Notes under the pieces: model-generated | Databases searched by the model: none | Told to the model about the DNA's origin: nothing | Seen by the model: only the letters and a program-made list of their open reading frames with translations | Assembly (NCBI GenBank): GCA_026389015.1 | Contig: JAPLIR010000021.1 | Location: 1 to 35,598, forward strand | Source: Candidatus Dependentiae bacterium | GTDB taxonomy: Bacteria; Babelota; Babeliae; Babelales; Vermiphilaceae | Direction: 5' to 3' | DNA length: 35,598 bases | Part shown: positions 2,749 through 35,598 of the stretch, one piece after another | Position numbering within the stretch: the first letter of the stretch is position 1 | How the letters are laid out: each line of letters opens with the position of its first letter | Translations under genes and position numbers: made by a program

Positions 2749-3117
2749 TTATTTTGTTGCATTCATTGATTCTGTCGCCATAGAATCTGCAGCAACGCCA
2801 GTCGGTGAAACCGGAGTATCATCTATTCCACTCATTAAATCATTTATTCTTGTGCGAGAGCTTGGCCGATAAGGTTTATGTCTAATTTTTGAAAAAGTAG
2901 CACCCAACTTAGAAACTTCATGATTATTAGACGGCTTGATTTTATGCTGAGCAAGCATAGCCTTAATGATTATTTGTTCCTGCTGCTCATGCGTTTCTTG
3001 ATTTACAGATTGCTCCTCTTTAATGACCTCTAATGAAGGCGCATCTTTTTTGTTCTCTTGCATGCCATCAACAGAGCAAGTCGCTGAAATTAATACTACA
3101 AAAATAAAATTTTTCAT
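2749..3117 (-). CDS. Small exported protein, unknown (122 aa)
   Basis: Residues 1-18 (MKNFIFVVLISATCSVDG) form a signal peptide. The mature part is polar and low in hydrophobic residues: Glu/Gln-rich at ~25-50, basic at ~65-90 (KIRHKPYRPSSRTR) and Ser/Thr/Met-rich at the end. It therefore looks largely disordered. AGGA precedes the ATG at good spacing, and a plausible sigma-70 promoter (TTGACT, 17 bases, TATACC) lies just upstream on the same strand. No family is recognised. It is divergent from tgt. Confidence 0.7.
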   Translation of the reverse strand: MKNFIFVVLISATCSVDGMQENKKDAPSLEVIKEEQSVNQETHEQQEQIIIKAMLAQHKIKPSNNHEVSKLGATFSKIRHKPYRPSSRTRINDLMSGIDDTPVSPTGVAADSMATESMNATK

Positions 3118-3136
3118 AAGAATCCTTTAATAACTG

Positions 3137-3165
3137 GGTATAGTTATAATTTTATTCTAAGTCAA
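3137..3165 (-). promoter_or_regulatory. Putative promoter for the small exported protein gene
   Basis: Read on the minus strand, TTGACT (3160-3165) is separated by 17 bases from TATACC (3137-3142), about 20 bases upstream of the ATG at 3117. The match to a sigma-70 promoter is good but unproven. Confidence 0.45.
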
Positions 3166-3201
3166 TCCTAGCAAAACGCCTATGTTAATGCGCTTGTTTT
3201 T

Positions 3202-3209
3202 GCTATAAT
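3202..3209 (+). promoter_or_regulatory. Putative extended -10 promoter of tgt
   Basis: TGC-TATAAT (TATAAT at 3204-3209) is a perfect extended -10 element ending 22 bases before the ATG at 3232. No good -35 is seen, as is normal for extended -10 promoters. The predicted leader is only ~15 bases and shows no Shine-Dalgarno sequence. Confidence 0.55.
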
Positions 3210-3231
3210 GTAAAAAAACCCCTTTAACCGT

Positions 3232-4374
3232 ATGATAATAACCATGACCCAATTTTCATTTAAAATTCTTCATAAATCATCCAAATCTCGTGCTCGAGTA
3301 GGTATAATCAACACACCTCACGGTATCATCGAGACGCCTGGTTTTGTGGCAGTAGGAACCAATGCTACCCTGAAGGCCGTTGACAGCACTATGGTTGAGT
3401 CTTTAGGCTTACAACTCATGTTTTGTAATACTTACCATTTAATTTTGCAACCAGGCCCTAACACCATTAAAAAAGCTGGCGGCTTGCACAAATTTATAAA
3501 ACGCAGTGGCCCCATTATTACCGATTCTGGTGGATTCCAGGTATTCAGCTTGGCCTACGGCACCGTCAACGATGAACTCAAAAGCAAAGGACAAAAAAAA
3601 CATGACGGCTCGGTGATAAAAATTAACGAAGACGGTGTGTTATTCCGGTCATATCGCAATGGTGATGCCGTACTATTAACTCCCGAATCTTCAGTTCAAG
3701 CACAAAAGGATCTTGGTGCGGACATTATTATTCCCCTTGATGAACTCCCGCCCTACCACATCGATCCACGCAAACTGGTAGAATCATTGCATCGTACCCA
3801 CCGCTGGGAAACTCGCTCACTCAACACACACCTTGCCAACCCCAATAATCAGGCAATGTATGCCGTAATTCATGGTGGCATTGACCCGGCATTGCGCAGC
3901 AAAAGTTGCGAATATCTGACCAAATTAGAATTTGATGGCTTTGCTGTTGGTGGCAGTTTAGGAAAAACACGCGAAGATATGTTCACTATGCTTGCGCACA
4001 CCATGCCACAACTCCCTACCGATAAACCAAATCATTTGCTTGGCATTGGCGATCTATTATCGCTCGAGCAGTGCATTAAGGAAGGGGTCGACACATTTGA
4101 CAGCTCACACCCAACCCGTTGCGCTCGCCATGGTTTGGTGTTCACCAAACGCGGCAATCTAAAAATTTTAAACAGTGGCAACAAAGAACTGTTCAGACCA
4201 ATCGAAGATGATTGCACCTGCATGGTCTGCCAAAATTACACCGTTGCCTATATTCACCATCTTTTTAAAGCAAAAGAAATGGTGGCTTATAGCCTTGCAA
4301 CCATTCACAATTTACATTTTATGATTCAATTAATGGCGGACTATCGCCGCAAAATTCTCGAAGGAGAACTCTAG
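3232..4374 (+). CDS. tgt: tRNA-guanine transglycosylase, Chlamydia-type (380 aa)
   Basis: This enzyme exchanges guanine-34 of GUN-anticodon tRNAs for a deazaguanine base (queuosine pathway, cytoplasm). Visible features are the TDSGGFQVFS motif with D108; the substrate-pocket Asp in PLDELPPY (D180); the nucleophile Asp in GVDTFDSSHPTR (D300); and a zinc site CTCMVC (C338, C340, C343) with H369. Compared with the preQ1-using enzyme of Zymomonas, the GGLAVGE loop is replaced by GGSLGKT (249-255), IVQGG by VIHGG, and the DEC of the pocket by DEL. A ~15-residue insert follows VFSLAYG. These are traits I recall from the Chlamydia trachomatis enzyme, which uses queuine, so this Tgt may salvage host queuine (inference). 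The start could also be the ATG at 3244. The SpoU gene follows after 3 bases, indicating an operon. Confidence 0.95.
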   Translation: MIITMTQFSFKILHKSSKSRARVGIINTPHGIIETPGFVAVGTNATLKAVDSTMVESLGLQLMFCNTYHLILQPGPNTIKKAGGLHKFIKRSGPIITDSGGFQVFSLAYGTVNDELKSKGQKKHDGSVIKINEDGVLFRSYRNGDAVLLTPESSVQAQKDLGADIIIPLDELPPYHIDPRKLVESLHRTHRWETRSLNTHLANPNNQAMYAVIHGGIDPALRSKSCEYLTKLEFDGFAVGGSLGKTREDMFTMLAHTMPQLPTDKPNHLLGIGDLLSLEQCIKEGVDTFDSSHPTRCARHGLVFTKRGNLKILNSGNKELFRPIEDDCTCMVCQNYTVAYIHHLFKAKEMVAYSLATIHNLHFMIQLMADYRRKILEGEL

Positions 4375-5797: not shown

Positions 5798-6823
5798 TTA
5801 TCTCCGGGCATGTTCTTTAAGCCATGCCTTCATATAATTTGGCATGGTTAAATCATACACTGTCTTTCCCTGTTTATTGCGAATAGACCCCCGCAAAGCA
5901 AGCCCTGTAGTCTGTGCCGCCACAATTTTGCTGCAATCAACTAACGCTTGAGCTGCATTGCAATGGCCATTTTGTGCCGCAATCATGAAGGCCGTTAATC
6001 CCTCATCATTTTGTTCATTAGGATTCACTTTACTCTTTATCATGAGAAGATAGATACTTTTAGCATCGTTATTTTCTGCCGCACGCATAAGTGGCGTAAA
6101 GCCTCTATAACCCTTGAGGTGTGGATTACCACCGCTTTCTATTAACATTTTGAGCATGGATGAATCTTTGTTCTGAGCCGCAAGCATGACCGCTTTTCGC
6201 GCAAGTTCATCAGTTAATTGTTGGCGACACTCTAATGCTTTCAAAAGAAGTCCTACGATATGCACATCTCTAGCTTTAATAGCAAGCCCTATGGGTGTTT
6301 GCCCGGCACTATTTTTTGCCATGGGATCTGCCTGCGCATCTAATAAAGAACATACTATATCAGCATTAATAACAGGAAATAGATCAAAGTAGGATGACTC
6401 TGGTTGGACTGCAAGGGTAAGTGGTGTTTGTCCGTCACTATCAAATGCATTGACATCCAATGTTGTACGTTCTAACGAATTACGTACACCACCAGGCACT
6501 TGATCACGTATGCTCATGCATAAAAGCTTATGTGCAAACAATTTTAAAATATTACCAACCTTGTAGAATGGCTCCGGTTGGACTGCAAGGGTAAGTGGTA
6601 TTTGTCCGTCACTATCGAATGCATTGACGTCCAATGGTGCACACTCTAACGAATTACGTACTCCACCAGACACTTTGTCGCGTATGCTCATGAATGAAAG
6701 CTTATGTGCAAACAATTTTAAAATATTACCAACCTTTTCATAGCCATCTTGATTGTGTTGGCATGGCATAATAATGCTACTTGTGCTTAGGAGCAAAGCA
6801 GCTATTCCTTTTTTTATATACAT
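5798..6823 (-). CDS. Exported ankyrin-repeat protein with internal 58-codon duplication (341 aa)
   Basis: The N-terminal ~22 residues (MYIKKGIAALLLSTSSIIMP) form a signal peptide. A 58-residue unit beginning KVGNILKLFAHKL and ending LTLAVQPE occurs twice in tandem (residues ~30-87 and ~88-145) with high identity. Its last third is an ankyrin consensus (DVNAFDSDGQTPLTLAV). Four to five ordinary ankyrin units follow (SAGQTPIGLAIKARDVHIV, YRGFTPLMRAAENNDAKSI, DEGLTAFMIAAQNGHCNAA), with a C-terminal cap ending in a basic tail. It is probably exported to bind an unknown protein. It lies 19 bases downstream of the HD phosphohydrolase gene on the same strand, so the two may be co-expressed. Confidence 0.92.
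   Translation of the reverse strand: MYIKKGIAALLLSTSSIIMPCQHNQDGYEKVGNILKLFAHKLSFMSIRDKVSGGVRNSLECAPLDVNAFDSDGQIPLTLAVQPEPFYKVGNILKLFAHKLLCMSIRDQVPGGVRNSLERTTLDVNAFDSDGQTPLTLAVQPESSYFDLFPVINADIVCSLLDAQADPMAKNSAGQTPIGLAIKARDVHIVGLLLKALECRQQLTDELARKAVMLAAQNKDSSMLKMLIESGGNPHLKGYRGFTPLMRAAENNDAKSIYLLMIKSKVNPNEQNDEGLTAFMIAAQNGHCNAAQALVDCSKIVAAQTTGLALRGSIRNKQGKTVYDLTMPNYMKAWLKEHARR
6402..6737 (-). repeat. Tandem 174-bp (58-codon) duplication inside an ankyrin gene
   Basis: Two direct copies begin at 6402 and 6576 on the plus strand (period 174 bases) and keep frame. Long stretches are identical, for example the shared block ending TTTTAAAATATTACCAACC at ~6541-6560 and ~6715-6734. The remainder differs by scattered substitutions. 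The high DNA identity suggests a recent duplication. Confidence 0.9.
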
Positions 6824-6842: not shown

Positions 6843-7946
6843 TTATCTCGTGAACTTTAAATACCAACCTTTTCGCGCCAAAGCTTCAACGCGCTTATAT
6901 TCAGCGGCATACTCCGCGTCGATAGCTGTTAAACGCTGCAAGCCTTGTTCCGTTTGCACCCAAGGATTAACCGCAAAACATTTTACTTTGACATGCTGAT
7001 CATAGTCAGACTCATCACTCAAAGAATAATAACGCACATAATGCATTACTTTATCAAGTGCTTTTTCAATAATATCATCGTGACTGCTGCACAATATATT
7101 CCATATAATTTCATCCTGAGAAAAACAAATATCATCCGTAGTAATAAGATTAAGCTCAACAGCACGCTTCAGAGCAACCGCCGCATGTTGGTAGGTGTAA
7201 CCATCTGATGCAGCACCAAACACATACTCAGAAAACCATAGAGAAATCATGCCTAATTTTTGTGCCTGAGCTACATGCTCAAAGCTCCACTCAGGATATT
7301 CAAAACAAAGGTCATTGACGATTGCACGCACTTCAGCCTCAGTTAATAATTGATCGGCAAGCGCACCGCGCAATAAATATTCAATGCGGTCCACACACAA
7401 ATCTGGCTTATCTTGTTCCAGCATCTTTTGTTGCTTCTTTTGTACTGCAGAACAACAACCACCAATATGGTGTTTTTTCAAAATATCCATAATGCCAACC
7501 TTGTCCAAATACCATTCAAGCTTATCGTCTTGAAAAGAAGATTCAGAAAAATAGGTCCCAAATACCACATCGCCAACATGAGAAAAAACCGTATGAGAAG
7601 CATCATGAAGTAACCCCGCCACTTGCTCATCCAAGCAAGCACCAAAATGCCGTAATAACACAAAAACACCTAAAGAATGGTCATAACGAGAAAATGAAAT
7701 TCCTTTATTGCCACAAGCAGCATCTCGGTACACCGTTACCCCATATTGCTCAATATGTTTTAACCGCTCGAAAGCAGAAGACCGTATTATCTCTACTAAC
7801 ACAGGCTCATGCACCTTATAATCACCGTATTCAGTCTGCACCACTAACTCATCACCTTTATCGATCACAAGCACTTCTGCCTGAAGCGGGTTGACAAAGA
7901 TGAGTAATAATCCCAATAATAATGAATAATTTTTCTTGTTTATCAT
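6843..7946 (-). CDS. Exported HD-domain phosphohydrolase, SAMHD1/COG1078-like (367 aa)
   Basis: After a clear signal peptide (residues 1-23, NPLQA before EVLV), the protein has a complete HD metal/catalytic set: H90 in FSRYDHSLGV, H114-D115 in AGLLHDASHTVFSH, and D186 in LCVDRIEYLLRGAL. The stretch AFERLKHIEQYGVT before the first His and the FSH after the HD pair are typical of the SAMHD1-like / COG1078 branch, whose members hydrolyse dNTPs or other nucleotides. Homologues I know of are cytoplasmic, so the leader is unusual. Both the signal peptide and the active-site residues are directly visible; the substrate is inferred. GGAG precedes the ATG. It is divergent from the permease at 8050 and followed on its own strand by the ankyrin gene at 5798-6823. 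Confidence 0.9.
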   Translation of the reverse strand: MINKKNYSLLLGLLLIFVNPLQAEVLVIDKGDELVVQTEYGDYKVHEPVLVEIIRSSAFERLKHIEQYGVTVYRDAACGNKGISFSRYDHSLGVFVLLRHFGACLDEQVAGLLHDASHTVFSHVGDVVFGTYFSESSFQDDKLEWYLDKVGIMDILKKHHIGGCCSAVQKKQQKMLEQDKPDLCVDRIEYLLRGALADQLLTEAEVRAIVNDLCFEYPEWSFEHVAQAQKLGMISLWFSEYVFGAASDGYTYQHAAVALKRAVELNLITTDDICFSQDEIIWNILCSSHDDIIEKALDKVMHYVRYYSLSDESDYDQHVKVKCFAVNPWVQTEQGLQRLTAIDAEYAAEYKRVEALARKGWYLKFTR

Positions 7947-9501: not shown

Positions 9502-10146
9502 TTAACCCAATGCATTCCTCACATACATGGATGCACCATATGAAAGTAAAGTATGTGCCAGTTGCACACGCCTCCCACGAACAGCACACATAAGGGGAGT
9601 AAAACCATCTGCGTCACAGGAATCTACATATGCGCCAGCTTTAAGTAATGCTTCTGTACTCTTTATATTGTTCATATAAGTCGCTTGCATAAGTGCAGTA
9701 TTTCGATGATCGTCTCGACTATTCATGTTGGCCCCAGCTCTTGATAGCACATCTATACAGTCAATGCGCTGCTCATAACTGGCATGCATAAGCGCTGTCC
9801 AATCGACATTATCAGTATTGTTAATATTCGCTCGAGCGCCTATCAGCACCCGCATGCAATCAGCATGTCCATGTCTAGCTGCATGCATTAAGGGCGTCAT
9901 ACCATCAACACCAACGCCATCTACATCGTGACCCTGTTCAACCAACATGGAAACTTTTTCTGCATCACCATTGCAAGCCGCCCTTGTTAAACGGCTATCT
10001 CTAAAACAATGAATTAACCCATGACACACGGTACCAACAACAGCCAGTTGCAACAAACCAGTGTTCAAGTCAAACGCCATTGAAGTAGTAACATTATTAT
10101 GGAGACTTACTATGACTACGACAAAAACAAGAATTAGTTTGCGCAT
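9502..10146 (-). CDS. Exported ankyrin-repeat protein (214 aa)
   Basis: The leader is MRKLILVFVVVIVSLHNNVT, a signal peptide or N-terminal anchor. A short second hydrophobic stretch at ~31-46 (GLLQLAVVGTVCHGLIH) could be part of a longer anchor. Five ankyrin units follow from residue ~52: LTRAACNGDAEKVSMLVEQG, DGMTPLMHAARHGHADCM, DWTALMHASYEQRIDCI, RNTALMQATYMNNIKS and DGFTPLMCAVRGRRVQLAH. The last unit ends the protein without a cap. The ribosome binding site is weak (AGGA about 12 bases away). It is a single gene between the permease and alr. Confidence 0.92.
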   Translation of the reverse strand: MRKLILVFVVVIVSLHNNVTTSMAFDLNTGLLQLAVVGTVCHGLIHCFRDSRLTRAACNGDAEKVSMLVEQGHDVDGVGVDGMTPLMHAARHGHADCMRVLIGARANINNTDNVDWTALMHASYEQRIDCIDVLSRAGANMNSRDDHRNTALMQATYMNNIKSTEALLKAGAYVDSCDADGFTPLMCAVRGRRVQLAHTLLSYGASMYVRNALG

Positions 10147-30935: not shown

Positions 30936-31934
30936 ATGAACATAAAATTTCTGCACAAAGTTGCCACCTGGCTTTTGCGTTTCCTTAAACTTCAATTGTT
31001 TATTTCTCTCGTAGCAATGCCCATGTTATTGTGGTGGGGATTACCCATATCCTTGCTCTCGCCCATCGGTAATCTTATTTTTGGGCCAGTACTTACCTTA
31101 TTTTTATCACTTTCATCATTGCTGTTTTTTACTGAGATGCTCTATATTCCCAATGGTTGGATTGCCAAACTACTTGATTGGACAACGCAAGCGTGGCTGT
31201 ATGTACTCAACATTGATGGTCACCCATGGCTTTATGGTTTTGCCAAGCCATCGTTGGCAATCCTCATTATAATTCCCGTTCTTGCACTGTGCGTTATTCA
31301 GTACAAAAGATTCACCAATACCCTGCAGAGTGTTGTTTGCCTAGGGTTGCTTCTTATTGGCTCATGTCTCTATCTCAAAACTAACTACGCCAAAACAGAA
31401 AGTATTGAAGAGCTTGCCTGTAATAAGGGGACATTAACTATCCTCCACGACTCTGCCGGCTGCATCGTGATTGACCCAGGCGTCATAGGCCAAAAAATTG
31501 CTGCCGCCTCCTGGACAGAATACACACTAGCGCCGCATCTGATTAAAACCAGTGGAAAAACCACCATTGATTGCCTCATTTTGTTACAACCGACAGCCAT
31601 GCTTTTTGATGCAGTAACCGCCCTTGTTACCAAAGTTAAAGTTAACACTATCTACCTGATTTACTGGGAAGGCCTAGTCCCTAAAAAAACATGGCACAGT
31701 TTTTTTGCCATGCGCAGAGCGCTTGAAGCCCAAGGTATTCCACTCAAAAGAATTGGCAACAAAGAACTAACCCTCAGAAGATCTGACCGTTCTTGCATCA
31801 CTATTACCCCGTTAAAACAAACCATAAAACAACAAGAAATCACCTATCCTGCTATTAAAGTTCATGGTTTTGTAGCTGATAAAATATTCGAATGCCATTC
31901 GTATAAATTCAAAAATCCCACACAAAAACCCTAA
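30936..31934 (+). CDS. Reduced ComEC/Rec2-like membrane protein with degenerate MBL-like domain (332 aa)
   Basis: Residues ~15-150 are hydrophobic, with the ComEC-type order: LLWWGLPISLLSPIGNLIFG resembles the end of the Competence domain, where the chain turns at SPxxN-hydrophobic-P. The rest (~160-330) aligns in layout with the ComEC metallo-beta-lactamase-like domain: CIVIDPG for the usual LIDTG, and DCLILLQPTAMLFDAVTAL where THxHxDHxGG would carry the metal ligands. Those His/Asp ligands are absent, so nuclease activity seems lost. At 332 residues it lacks the N-terminal OB part and half the channel of full ComEC (~700-750). It could be a remnant or a specialised short form. No obvious ribosome binding site precedes the ATG. 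Confidence 0.7.
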   Translation: MNIKFLHKVATWLLRFLKLQLFISLVAMPMLLWWGLPISLLSPIGNLIFGPVLTLFLSLSSLLFFTEMLYIPNGWIAKLLDWTTQAWLYVLNIDGHPWLYGFAKPSLAILIIIPVLALCVIQYKRFTNTLQSVVCLGLLLIGSCLYLKTNYAKTESIEELACNKGTLTILHDSAGCIVIDPGVIGQKIAAASWTEYTLAPHLIKTSGKTTIDCLILLQPTAMLFDAVTALVTKVKVNTIYLIYWEGLVPKKTWHSFFAMRRALEAQGIPLKRIGNKELTLRRSDRSCITITPLKQTIKQQEITYPAIKVHGFVADKIFECHSYKFKNPTQKP

Positions 31935-32003: not shown

Positions 32004-32047
32004 AGAAATATTTTATCAATAATAATCATTAAAACAAGGAGTTTATA

Positions 32048-32698
32048 ATGAAGAAGTTTTGCACAAAAATGTTTGTACTGATACTCGGCACACTCATGGT
32101 GCTGCCCGAAAATATCGGCGCCAACGCACTGAATACCGAAGACAACACCGTCAATAACGATTTAGAAAGAGGCGGTGGTGGCGGCGGACGTGGTGGTGGC
32201 GGTGGCGGTGGACGTGGTGGCGGCGGTGGATCACGAGGAGGCGGCGCAAGCCGTGGCGGTGGGTCTCGAGGCGGTAGCGCAAGTCGTGGCGGTGGCAGTC
32301 GTTCAGGTTCTGGATCAAGATCAGGTTCAAGATCAGCTAGTGGTTCTCGCAGTGGATCACGTAGTGGATCACGTAGTGTTTCTCGTAGCGGATCACGTAG
32401 TGGAAGCTATGCGCACGGACGCGGTGGCTACGGTCGTGGCGGCTGGGGACGCGGCGGATACGGTTGGGGACGTGGCGGCTGGGGACGCGGCTGGGGCATA
32501 GGTTGGGGATGGGGCGCAGCTGGGTTCTTAGGCCTTTATTGGGGCGGAAGTTACTACAGCGATTGGCCTTCATTCTGTAACGCTTACGGCGCATGGGGCG
32601 AATGCTTAGTTTATGATGGATCTGGTCCATTACCTCTTGATGTACAAGAAGCTCTCGCTGAAAATTCTGCTGATTATGACGATGAAGACGAAGCTTAG
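32048..32698 (+). CDS. Exported RGG/SR-rich glycine protein (216 aa), first of three
   Basis: A signal peptide (1-26, ending NIGA before NALN) is followed by a short acidic segment, then RGG-type repeats (~38-85), Ser-Arg-Gly repeats such as SRSGSGSRSGSRSASGSRSG (~83-120) and a Gly/Trp/Arg region (YGRGGWGRGGYGWGRGGWG). A compact C-terminal domain (~150-205) contains GWGAAGFLGLYWGG, WPSFCNAYGAWGEC with two Cys, and YDGSGPLPLDVQEALAE. The last residues are acidic. The C-terminal domain is shared with the next gene. AAGGAG precedes the ATG. The function is unknown. Arg-Gly and Ser-Arg repeats are commonest in eukaryotic RNA-binding proteins, but a structural envelope role is equally possible. 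Confidence 0.88.
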   Translation: MKKFCTKMFVLILGTLMVLPENIGANALNTEDNTVNNDLERGGGGGGRGGGGGGGRGGGGGSRGGGASRGGGSRGGSASRGGGSRSGSGSRSGSRSASGSRSGSRSGSRSVSRSGSRSGSYAHGRGGYGRGGWGRGGYGWGRGGWGRGWGIGWGWGAAGFLGLYWGGSYYSDWPSFCNAYGAWGECLVYDGSGPLPLDVQEALAENSADYDDEDEA

Positions 32699-32729
32699 AC
32701 TTTTTTAGAACATTAAAAGGAATATTACG

Positions 32730-33173
32730 ATGAAAAAAATGTATACAAAGATATTCACTTTGTTACTCGGCATGGCACTCCTAGGAGTGCCATCTGCCCT
32801 TGATGCACGAGGCGGTGGCCACGGTGGTGGACATGGTCACGGTGGACACGGGCATGGTGGACATGGTCATCACGGCCACGGCGGTCACGGACACGGTGGT
32901 CATGGTAGACATGGTCATGGTGAGCACGGGCGCGGTTGGGGCCACGGCGGCTGGGGTTGGGGTAACGCAGGCTGGGGACTCGGCTGGGGAACAGCTTGGG
33001 GCTGGGGCGCAGCTGGATTTCTAGGTCTTACCTGGGGCAACAGATACTACAATAGTTGGCCTGCTTTCTGTGATGCGTATGGTAGCTGGAATGGATGTTG
33101 GACCTACGATGGATCTGGTGAATTACCTTACGATGTCCAAGAAGCTCTTGCTGCAGAAAATAGCTCTGAGTAA
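32730..33173 (+). CDS. Exported His-Gly-rich protein (147 aa), second of three
   Basis: The signal peptide (1-27, LDA before RGGG) is nearly the same as in the third gene. Residues ~28-70 are a His-Gly repeat (GGHGHGGHGHGGHGHHGHGG) with well over a dozen His, a likely metal-binding or pH-sensitive segment (inference). A Trp/Gly linker leads to the C-terminal domain shared with gene one: GWGAAGFLGLTWG, WPAFCDAYGSWNGC with two Cys, and YDGSGELPYDVQEALAAE. AAAAGGAA precedes the ATG, 31 bases after the previous stop, so it is co-transcribed. No family is recognised. Confidence 0.88.
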   Translation: MKKMYTKIFTLLLGMALLGVPSALDARGGGHGGGHGHGGHGHGGHGHHGHGGHGHGGHGRHGHGEHGRGWGHGGWGWGNAGWGLGWGTAWGWGAAGFLGLTWGNRYYNSWPAFCDAYGSWNGCWTYDGSGELPYDVQEALAAENSSE

Positions 33174-33208
33174 CGAGACAATGAAGATAAAGATTTAGGA
33201 GAAATGGT

Positions 33209-33916
33209 ATGAAAAAAATATGTAAAAAATTACTTACCCTATTACTCGGTATGGCACTTGTAGTGTCATTCGACATTGATGCACGAGGCGGCGGTGGCGG
33301 TCATGGTGGCGGAGGCCACGGTGGCGGCGGTCGAGGCGGACATGGTGGCGGTCGAGGCGGACATGGTGGCGGTCGAGGCGGACACGGTGGTCGCGGAGGC
33401 TATGGTCGAGGCGGTTACGGACGTGGCGGCTGGGGCGGACGCAGTTGGGGTGGTCGAGGTTATGGCTATGGAGGCTATGGGTGGGGCGGATACGGCTTAG
33501 GAGTCGGCCTTGGACTTGGATGGGGTTATGGATGGAATAGACCATACTATTGGGGTAATTATTATGGCCCATGGCAAGGTTATTACTATCCAAGAACCGT
33601 ATACATTACCCAAGCTACTGAACCCGTGCGTAGTAAATGGCTCGATGATCGCGGCAAAAAACACTGGGACATTTCCAATAGCACCGAGGAAACTATAACG
33701 GTAATGGGTCCAGAAGGTCGCATACAGATCAAGCCTGGTAAAACAGCTACATTAAGCCACGTTGGTAGTTTTAAGATAACGGTAAAAGCTGGAAGCCAGC
33801 GTGTCAAAGAAGATACGGACGCTCACTACTTAGATGCCGCAATGGATAAAGATGGCAATTTACGCCTGAGAACACCTGAATCAGAGTCTGAATCAGAAGA
33901 AGAAGGCTCTGAGTAA
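33209..33916 (+). CDS. Exported glycine-rich protein with C-terminal beta domain (235 aa), third of three
   Basis: The signal peptide (1-25, DIDA before RGGG) closely matches that of gene two. Residues ~26-110 are RGG/GHGG repeats, including three tandem 7-residue units, then Gly/Tyr/Trp-rich sequence (GYGYGGYGWGGYGLGVGLGL). A Tyr/Pro segment follows (~112-133). Unlike its neighbours, it ends in a predicted beta-sandwich-like domain (~145-215) with KHWDISNSTEETITV, IQIKPGKTATLSHVGSFKIT and DKDGNLRLR, then a Ser/Glu tail. TAGGAGAA precedes the ATG. It is the last gene of the operon; the terminator lies just beyond. Function unknown. Confidence 0.88.
   Translation: MKKICKKLLTLLLGMALVVSFDIDARGGGGGHGGGGHGGGGRGGHGGGRGGHGGGRGGHGGRGGYGRGGYGRGGWGGRSWGGRGYGYGGYGWGGYGLGVGLGLGWGYGWNRPYYWGNYYGPWQGYYYPRTVYITQATEPVRSKWLDDRGKKHWDISNSTEETITVMGPEGRIQIKPGKTATLSHVGSFKITVKAGSQRVKEDTDAHYLDAAMDKDGNLRLRTPESESESEEEGSE
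33328..33390 (+). repeat. Three tandem 21-bp coding repeats
   Basis: CGGTCGAGGCGGACATGGTG plus one G repeats at 33328, 33349 and 33370 (the third copy has one change), encoding Gly-Arg-Gly-Gly-His-Gly-Gly units. The copies have no spacers, so this is not a CRISPR array. Such repeats can change in number by slippage. Confidence 0.9.
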
Positions 33917-33935: not shown

Positions 33936-33972
33936 AAAACTCCCTGTTAGGTTAGCCCTGACAGGGAGTTTT
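33936..33972 (+). terminator. Intrinsic terminator of the glycine-rich operon
   Basis: AAAACTCCCTGT (33936-33947) pairs perfectly with 33961-33972. With one G-U pair the stem extends to 15 bp around a 7-nt loop. The right arm ends in GTTTT and is followed by CGCTTT. The mirrored A-run on the left arm means it could also work on the minus strand. Confidence 0.87.
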
Positions 33973-34062: not shown

Positions 34063-34674
34063 ATGCAATCTGTTTCACGCACATTATCGATAACACTATT
34101 GATGACATTATTCATTGTACCTTCTCTTTTTAGCATAGTAATCAATGAAGACCGCGAACAAAAAATCTTGGATCTACAACTTGAAGAAGCTATTGAAAAT
34201 AATGATCCAGAAAAAATCAAAAGATTATACGCAGAAGGCGCTAATGGCTCAACAAGCCCTGTAAAACCGGCTGCCTATGCATGTTTAAAAAAGTCGTCGC
34301 AAGCATTGGATGCAATACTCCGGAACGGGGGAGATTATCGCGAACGTTATTCAGCAATCACCATTTCCACATCATTTGGTAAAGAATATATTCTAAAACA
34401 AGCGACTAATTCTAATGACAATAGTCCAACATTTAGTCCTTTAGAGCTTGCAGACAATGACCCGCAAATAATACAAGTTTTTAAACGACACGGCATTAAA
34501 ACAACTAGATCTAATAGTTTTACCTTGCTCAAACAAGAAATGACAGAATCCAACTCGACTGAAGCTGCAATAGACCAACAAAAGCTGCCCATGTTTATAC
34601 ATCAAAACGTTAAGCCATCAAAAAAAAGCTGCTGGGAAATAGTATTGGCAAGGTTGGGTATACTGAAAAAATAG
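34063..34674 (+). CDS. Exported protein with degenerate ankyrin-like repeats (203 aa)
   Basis: The leader MQSVSRTLSITLLMTLFIVP is a signal peptide, cleaved probably near residue 24. The following LQLEEAIENNDPEKIKRLYA (~39-58), then an ankyrin-like pairing of short helices (KPAAYACLKKSSQALDAILR, ~68-87) and LELADNDPQIIQVFKRHG resemble ankyrin units. They lack the clean TPL turn, so the repeat assignment is tentative. The C-terminus is Ser/Thr/Gln-rich with a basic end. GAGG precedes the ATG. A possible promoter (TTGATC at 34020-34025, 17 bases, TATATA at 34043-34048) lies very close upstream. Confidence 0.75.
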   Translation: MQSVSRTLSITLLMTLFIVPSLFSIVINEDREQKILDLQLEEAIENNDPEKIKRLYAEGANGSTSPVKPAAYACLKKSSQALDAILRNGGDYRERYSAITISTSFGKEYILKQATNSNDNSPTFSPLELADNDPQIIQVFKRHGIKTTRSNSFTLLKQEMTESNSTEAAIDQQKLPMFIHQNVKPSKKSCWEIVLARLGILKK

Positions 34675-34708
34675 ATTGGATAACATTGTTCACCTATTAA
34701 GGTTTTTT

Positions 34709-35041
34709 GTGGAGCACTCAAAAAAAATAATTTTTTTTATAATGTTGACACTAACTTCTACACCTATGGCAACCGGCATGAACTCAAAAAGCATGAGGCA
34801 AATACCACAATCTAAGTATGTTAACACGATATCAAACAATACTCATACTCCCGTAACGGTTGTCTATCATGGTTTTTGTCGCTTGCCACAAGCAAGTCAC
34901 CTAGAAAATGTTGTTCGGCCTGGAGAATCTGTCACTTTTTATAGAGCTCAATCCATAAAAATAGATAATCAATTTTACTCTATAACTCATAAACATATGG
35001 TACTGTGTGCCTATCAAAATAGCGCCTTATATATGCAATAA
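34709..35041 (+). CDS. Small exported beta-rich protein (110 aa)
   Basis: The start chosen is GTG at 34709, because AAGG (34699-34702) is 6 bases upstream and the residues from there form a leader (MEHSKKIIFFIMLTLTSTPM). The in-frame TTG at 34676 would add polar residues before the leader. The mature part has a beta-type domain with NNTHTPVTVVYHG, ENVVRPGESVTFY and QSIKIDNQF. The order Asn-x-Thr, valine-rich strand, then [KR]PG-x3-T resembles the C-terminal domain of the third glycine-rich protein. Two Cys could pair. Unrecognised family; it begins 34 bases after the previous gene and may be co-transcribed. Confidence 0.65.
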   Translation: MEHSKKIIFFIMLTLTSTPMATGMNSKSMRQIPQSKYVNTISNNTHTPVTVVYHGFCRLPQASHLENVVRPGESVTFYRAQSIKIDNQFYSITHKHMVLCAYQNSALYMQ

Positions 35042-35076: not shown

Positions 35077-35598
35077 TTATATTCCCTCAATCAACACCGC
35101 TCGCGCTGGAGCAGCTTCAATATCAATCACATGAAGTGGTAGACAACAAAAGAAATACGTACCAGGTTGTACATGTTGCAAACGTAAACCTTCAATGATC
35201 ACGATATCTGTGCTCATGAAAGCCAAATGTGTTTCATGCGCAGGCTGCGCTCGCTCAACACCAAGATAATCAATCCCCACTGCTTTGATCTTTTTTTCTT
35301 GCAAGTACTGTGCGCCGGAGGCTTCAAGATACACAAACGCAGGATTAAATAGATCTGTTGCACCTAAACTGCTGTTGGCAGTTTTGAGCAAAATAATATC
35401 ACCAGCTTTAATCATCGCATCATGCATCATTAAAACTTCGCGCGTGATTTTATCCTGCACTGACGTTAAATCAAGAACGTTGCAGGTGCCAACTAAAGAA
35501 TCTAATGCAACCTTGTCGATGGTGTTGCCATCACGCATAAAATGGGATGGTGCATCAACATGAGTGCCCGAATGCGCATCAATGGTGGTGGTCGTTTC
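35077..35598 (-). CDS. Cyclase-family (kynurenine formamidase-like) hydrolase, N-terminus outside window
   Basis: The minus-strand frame is open to the right edge, so the start lies outside. The visible N-terminal part carries the family signature DAHSGTHVDAPSHF, the His/Asp metal-binding motif of the cyclase family (PF04199), to which bacterial KynB belongs. Later segments are VLDLTSVQDKITREVL, GDIILLKTANSS, YLEASGAQYLQEKKIKAVGI with DYLGVERAQPAHE, and LPLHVIDIEAAPARAVLIEG, the usual C-terminal strand. Family members hydrolyse formamides or related amides; the substrate here is unknown. The internal Met used by a shorter frame (35538) is not a start, because the signature lies upstream of it. 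Confidence 0.93.
   Translation of the reverse strand, partial: ETTTTIDAHSGTHVDAPSHFMRDGNTIDKVALDSLVGTCNVLDLTSVQDKITREVLMMHDAMIKAGDIILLKTANSSLGATDLFNPAFVYLEASGAQYLQEKKIKAVGIDYLGVERAQPAHETHLAFMSTDIVIIEGLRLQHVQPGTYFFCCLPLHVIDIEAAPARAVLIEGI

Follow-up and report, generated by a model that had tools for sequence, protein, structure and literature searches.

Three short genes lie one behind another in DNA of a Candidatus Dependentiae bacterium (Babeliae/TM6), whose genome comprises 1.33 Mb in 29 contigs. Dependentiae are protist parasites, and the host of the source bacterium is probably a protist as well. The window, i.e. the whole stretch of 35,598 nucleotides that was analysed, contains the trio together with the two genes that border its chromosomal site (Table 1). 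The original prediction of three consecutive open reading frames was confirmed: the reading-frame ends are identical, Shine-Dalgarno-like sites precede the genes, the gaps between them are short (31 nt between genes 1 and 2, 35 nt between genes 2 and 3), and a single probable terminator follows, a hairpin absent from the list of the consensus terminator scan. Related signal peptides had also been claimed, which applies to genes 2 and 3 (MKKMYTKIFTLLLGMAL and MKKICKKLLTLLLGMAL), while the resemblance of gene 1 is looser. All signal peptides were assigned by composition and cleavage motif only, and an uncleaved membrane anchor is possible. The sequence ARGGG(G/H/R) appears soon after the signal-peptide-like N-terminus in genes 2 and 3; in gene 1 an acidic linker of about 13 residues comes first, located between the likely cleavage site and the start of the RGG body.

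Table 1. Features of the trio and of the genes bordering its site (window positions)
Feature	Position	Strand	Description
ComEC-like membrane protein, left border of site	30936..31934	+	weak Pfam Competence match; orthologues in 27/29 same-family genomes
Shine-Dalgarno, gene 1	32036..32041	+	AAGGAG, Shine-Dalgarno-like; AAAGGA for gene 2, TAGGAG for gene 3
Gene 1, 216 aa	32048..32698	+	signal peptide, acidic linker, RGG and Ser-Arg repeats, GW/GY tract, two-Cys C-terminal module, acidic tail
Two-Cys module of gene 1	32492..32680	+	motif; dN/dS about 0.18 against gene 2
Gene 2, 147 aa	32730..33173	+	signal peptide, ARGGGHGGG His-Gly body, GW tract, two-Cys C-terminal module
Two-Cys module of gene 2	32985..33170	+	motif; AlphaFold2 pLDDT 73.9
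Gene 3, 235 aa	33209..33916	+	signal peptide, ARGGGGGHGGGG, RGG/YG/WG body, C-terminal beta domain, acidic Ser-Glu tail
Beta-sandwich domain of gene 3	33620..33871	+	common to exported proteins of 10/29 same-family genomes (own included)
Probable operon terminator	33936..33972	+	16-bp hairpin and T-run, fold -25 kcal/mol, 3' of gene 3
PF04199 cyclase, right border of site	35077..35598	-	truncated by contig end; Pfam E 2.7e-22; relatives in 24/29 same-family genomes

Low-complexity bodies and C-terminal modules

The bodies differ from gene to gene in the manner first described, as motif counts demonstrate: RGG with Ser-Arg repeats in gene 1 (11 RGG, 20 SR/RS, a single His), His-Gly in gene 2 (15 HG, 16 His, 4 Arg), and RGG with Tyr-Gly in gene 3 (7 RGG, 8 YG). 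At the DNA level, the GGG-x-GGG pattern occurs six times in the window, always within the trio, compared with 0 in dinucleotide-preserving shuffles. The Gly, Arg and Ser codons of the bodies form a synonymous mixture and recent tandem copies are short, with near-perfect ones in genes 1 and 3. Therefore, the bodies are features of the protein and do not represent the slippage of a single DNA repeat. None of the three genes had a Pfam match at E ≤ 1, RNA-binding domains (RRM, KH and the like) included, or a match in NCBIfam.

Genes 1 and 2 share a C-terminal module of about 60 residues with about 70% identity, in which the reported motif WP-x-FC-x-AYG-x-W-x2-C is exact in both. Between the two copies dS is about 1.3 (near saturation) and dN is 0.24, giving a dN/dS of about 0.18 (bootstrap 0.09–0.40); since dN is low while synonymous change is near saturation, the module is kept by purifying selection. 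It was found in none of 100 other genomes of the phylum, a comparison set holding no same-genus genome, and not in the viral_contigs scan; plasmid searches also found none, at a sensitivity limited by the low-complexity filter. The AlphaFold2 model of the gene 2 copy had no structural match in the PDB. Candidates in three genomes (G001, G009 and G097; E 0.03–0.06) fall outside exported glycine-rich reading frames of a comparable kind and were rejected as chance matches.

The beta domain predicted at the end of gene 3 was modelled by AlphaFold2 as an eight-strand beta sandwich (pLDDT 75.6). Single-sequence and profile searches with this domain of about 85 residues find it in 10 of the 29 same-family genomes, in exported proteins with E-values of 4e-19 to 1e-32, and in 0 of the 72 remaining phylum genomes outside the family; the profile also recovers two members outside its training set (3e-17 and 3e-7). 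The first profile had included a doubtful reading frame at 34676–35041 of the window, and a profile without it still recovers the remaining members. This frame (forward strand) encodes an exported product with an N-T...V.V...PGE pattern resembling the gene 3 domain; it is not claimed as a stand-alone member, because the profile built without it fails to recover it at E ≤ 0.5. In another genome (G022, locus L058, approximately 3023–3672), a beta domain occurs in the frame next to an exported glycine-rich start, as if a frameshift had split a fused gene.

In Foldseek, the gene 3 model comes closest to the PepT extracellular domain, thaumatin-like proteins and AlgF (best E 7e-3, TM-score to query 0.35–0.62), with no PDB structural match at E ≤ 0.001. 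These are generic small beta sandwiches, i.e. fold neighbours to which a sequence relationship was not found. PDB sequence matches to designed Ig-like proteins (E 0.003–0.05) were taken as a fold hint only, and fold matches to giant-virus proteins in BFVD were set aside for their low TM-scores. A family search had been proposed along with the original prediction for the module of genes 1 and 2; searches of Pfam, NCBIfam, PHROGs and PDB sequences matched no characterised family for either type of C-terminal module.

A variable site and a class across the phylum

Most genomes of the family share a framework consisting of a comEC-like gene, a DJ-1/PfpI gene and a PF04199 cyclase, with exported proteins in a variable interval; a 7-sequence profile scan found comEC-like orthologues in TM6, Babeliales and Dependentiae. 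The trio lies between the comEC-like and cyclase genes of the window, where the usual DJ-1 gene is missing. Of the 27 same-family genomes with the comEC-like gene, 14 encode exported glycine-rich proteins within the interval or immediately next to it (G000, G002, G004, G005, G011, G013, G014, G015, G016, G020, G021, G022, G025 and G028). This count includes G013, in which the protein adjoins DJ-1 and cyclase and a different contig carries the comEC-like gene, as well as G020 and G021, whose proteins lie just past the cyclase. Roughly half of the family genomes lack such a protein at the site, and others carry arrays of 2–4 genes, with four consecutive ones in G016. A 277-aa protein of that genome runs from a signal peptide through ARGGGGHGGGG to a beta domain, and a 337-aa protein of another genus (G005) joins a signal peptide and ARGGGRGGGG with GRGRSMSPGRGG repeats, thus combining RGG with SR-like sequence in one protein. 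A further exported reading frame of the window (34063–34674, forward strand) starts like a decayed ankyrin repeat and has no Pfam match.

Five or more families of the phylum were found to encode exported RGG/HGG proteins, typically with ARGGG(G/H/R) close behind the signal peptide and with differing C-terminal modules. Sampled pattern sites yielded ARGGG-type members in four families beyond the trio's own (f3, f4, f7 and f14), with C-termini made of coiled-coil-like stretches, Cys-rich repeats or short aromatic tails; the sampled members have no detectable comEC, DJ-1 or cyclase neighbours. The coding-like GGG-x-GGG pattern itself is present in 75 of 95 Dependentiae genomes, a count that includes unrelated Gly-rich proteins. 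The trio holds the only RGG/HGG proteins found in its own genome, in which the remaining Gly-pattern places belong to different proteins. G028 has 78 matches on one strand, none of them at the conserved site, and a very long Gly-rich gene likely lies elsewhere in it.

The original prediction had viewed the three genes as a set to be sought in sister genomes. The exact trio, like its Cys module, is found in no other genome compared (no same-genus genome among them), but the class recurs at the same site within the family and elsewhere in the phylum. Because exported RGG/HGG proteins recur in this way, the trio is not a one-off operon. As judged from sequence, it is one local copy of a modular, phylum-wide class of exported glycine-rich proteins of Dependentiae. 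These share a signal-peptide-like start, a Lys-free or Lys-poor body of Gly, Arg, His, Tyr and Trp, exchangeable C-terminal modules and the repeated use of one site. The module of gene 3 is common to relatives, whereas that of genes 1 and 2 was found in this pair alone. A few class members are not Arg-rich, and several relatives are without His. Within the literature library searched, no paper links Dependentiae with glycine-rich proteins; the class is apparently previously undescribed, a claim of novelty limited by a survey of Dependentiae only.

The beginning of the mature proteins is distinctive. Over the first 15 mature residues, 38 exported glycine-rich proteins from the loci compared have a net charge of +1.45, versus +0.28 in 160 other exported proteins, and Lys stands at 0.05 versus 0.96; the glycine-rich proteins are rich in Arg and poor in acidic residues there, all positions being approximate under a crude cleavage rule. 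Cationic Gly/Tyr/His-rich secreted peptides are known as antimicrobials in plants and nematodes, and most of the bodies have a pI above 9, which would suit glycine-rich antimicrobial or membrane-active peptides that are processed from a precursor and act against competitors or the host membrane. However, C-terminal modules that are predicted to fold and are under selection are unexpected in simple peptide precursors, and no processing or immunity gene is conserved adjoining the class genes, so that we hold this explanation to be very improbable.

Body composition changes rapidly between genera. Together with the short near-perfect tandem copies of genes 1 and 3, this could mean that the Gly-rich repeats are fast-evolving filler produced by slippage, the body having little function and only the C-terminal modules being of importance. 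The mixed synonymous codons and the near absence of Lys speak against such an origin, as do the ARGGG start recurring across families and the bodies being kept with many different C-terminal modules; we regard it as unlikely.

Candidate roles and the cell envelope

RGG and SR repeats are characteristic of RNA-binding proteins in eukaryotes. Like FUS, fibrillarin and the SR splicing factors, the trio contains RGG (genes 1 and 3) or SR repeats and aromatic-Gly tracts and avoids Lys. The original prediction suggested that the trio could mimic host RNA-binding proteins. In an effector version of this idea, the RGG/Ser-Arg bodies would enter the protist and imitate or sequester stress-granule, splicing or nucleolar proteins. 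Gene 1 with its dense repeats fits this idea, a different genus combines RGG with SRSMSP-like repeats, and host-directed secretion is the accepted view for the phylum (PMC4378268; PMC6561590). Yet nothing positive was found beyond composition. Unlike the eukaryotic proteins, the trio has a signal-peptide-like start, which favours export, and includes a His-Gly sibling with just 4 Arg, and the Pfam and PDB searches gave no RNA-binding or nuclear module. Moreover, many members of the phylum keep the same build without SR and with little RGG, and RNA mimicry thus cannot be the common role; as an explanation of the trio, host mimicry seems improbable.

The His-rich members raise another explanation, namely metal binding or buffering in the envelope, with the His-Gly tracts and the two Cys as ligands of Zn, Ni or Cu. 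It would account for the 16 His among the 147 residues of gene 2, for HGG being common in the class and for the two conserved Cys of genes 1 and 2. But there is a single His in gene 1 and none in several relatives, and no metal transporter or regulator was recognised at the borders of the conserved site, which makes metal binding decidedly unlikely.

Among known systems, the sulfur globule proteins of purple sulfur bacteria are exported glycine-rich structural proteins, proposed to form coats. The trio resembles them in its small size, signal peptides and Gly/Tyr/Trp-rich low-complexity bodies, and in the coat proposed, but differs in being Arg-/His-rich, in its C-terminal modules with predicted folds and in its arrays at a variable site. 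This comparison was made through family profiles only, with no match in Pfam or NCBIfam, libraries that may lack a sulfur globule model. Exported ankyrin-repeat proteins have been reported for the phylum (PMC4378268; PMC6561590). With this secreted ankyrin/ORFan repertoire the trio has in common the phylum, signal peptides, variable gene islands and the lack of a characterised homologue; unlike the ankyrin proteins, it is devoid of ankyrin repeats. The main text of both papers does not mention glycine-rich proteins (PMC4378268; PMC6561590). The window itself encodes ankyrin-repeat proteins with signal-peptide-like starts on the reverse strand (1472–2611, 5798–6823 and 9502–10146; Pfam was run on two), which are typical of Dependentiae, and an HD-domain protein (6843–7946, reverse strand; PF01966, E 2e-5), possibly an exported phosphohydrolase given its signal-peptide-like N-terminus.

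As regards the envelope, LpxC of LPS synthesis was found in 0 of 27 same-family genomes with positive controls detected, and its absence extends to family genomes without exported glycine-rich proteins. This fits an LPS-less outer membrane, though the phylum is described as Gram-negative-like. No LPS genes were reported for Chromulinavorax (PMC6561590), and type II secretion is the sole secretion system reported for Babela (PMC4378268). Secretins are present in 24 of the 27 genomes, with two in the source genome; in most same-family genomes two secretin genes lie about 4.5 kb apart (G000:C28:47875-52779 in the source genome). Since the family is without LpxC and has secretins, the alternative that accompanied the original prediction, a surface matrix or condensate-like coat, is a better fit than host mimicry.

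In such a scheme, Sec would export the trio proteins across the inner membrane, from where they would travel onward via one of the secretins or outer-membrane vesicles, or become anchored in the envelope. The flexible bodies would self-associate through contacts of Arg and His with Tyr and Trp (sticker-and-spacer chemistry), giving a coat or matrix around the LPS-less parasite, in or near its host, and attachment of the strings, or the choice of their binding partners, would fall to the beta domain and to the Cys module with its potential disulphide. We put at about an even chance the general proposal that the exported strings of this class self-associate, forming a protein coat or matrix for which the C-terminal module provides attachment or specificity. 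Given that such proteins are missing from the site in roughly half of the family genomes, a coat would be either not universal or encoded elsewhere. The full version is tentative and rather doubtful: an LPS-less phylum of intracellular parasites would use a dedicated class of Sec-exported, condensate-forming RGG/HGG proteins with an ARGGG start after the signal peptide, routed through secretins into an extracellular coat or matrix, whose specificity would be set by swaps of C-terminal modules at one site.

Hardly anything is known about the proteins that Dependentiae display on their surface or use to interact with the host, and much of what they export has no known relative. A class that returns to the same chromosomal address, begins with a recurrent N-terminal start and has exchangeable ends provides concrete candidates for the covering of an LPS-less intracellular cell, together with an example of extracellular RGG-type, condensate-like chemistry that can be put to the test.
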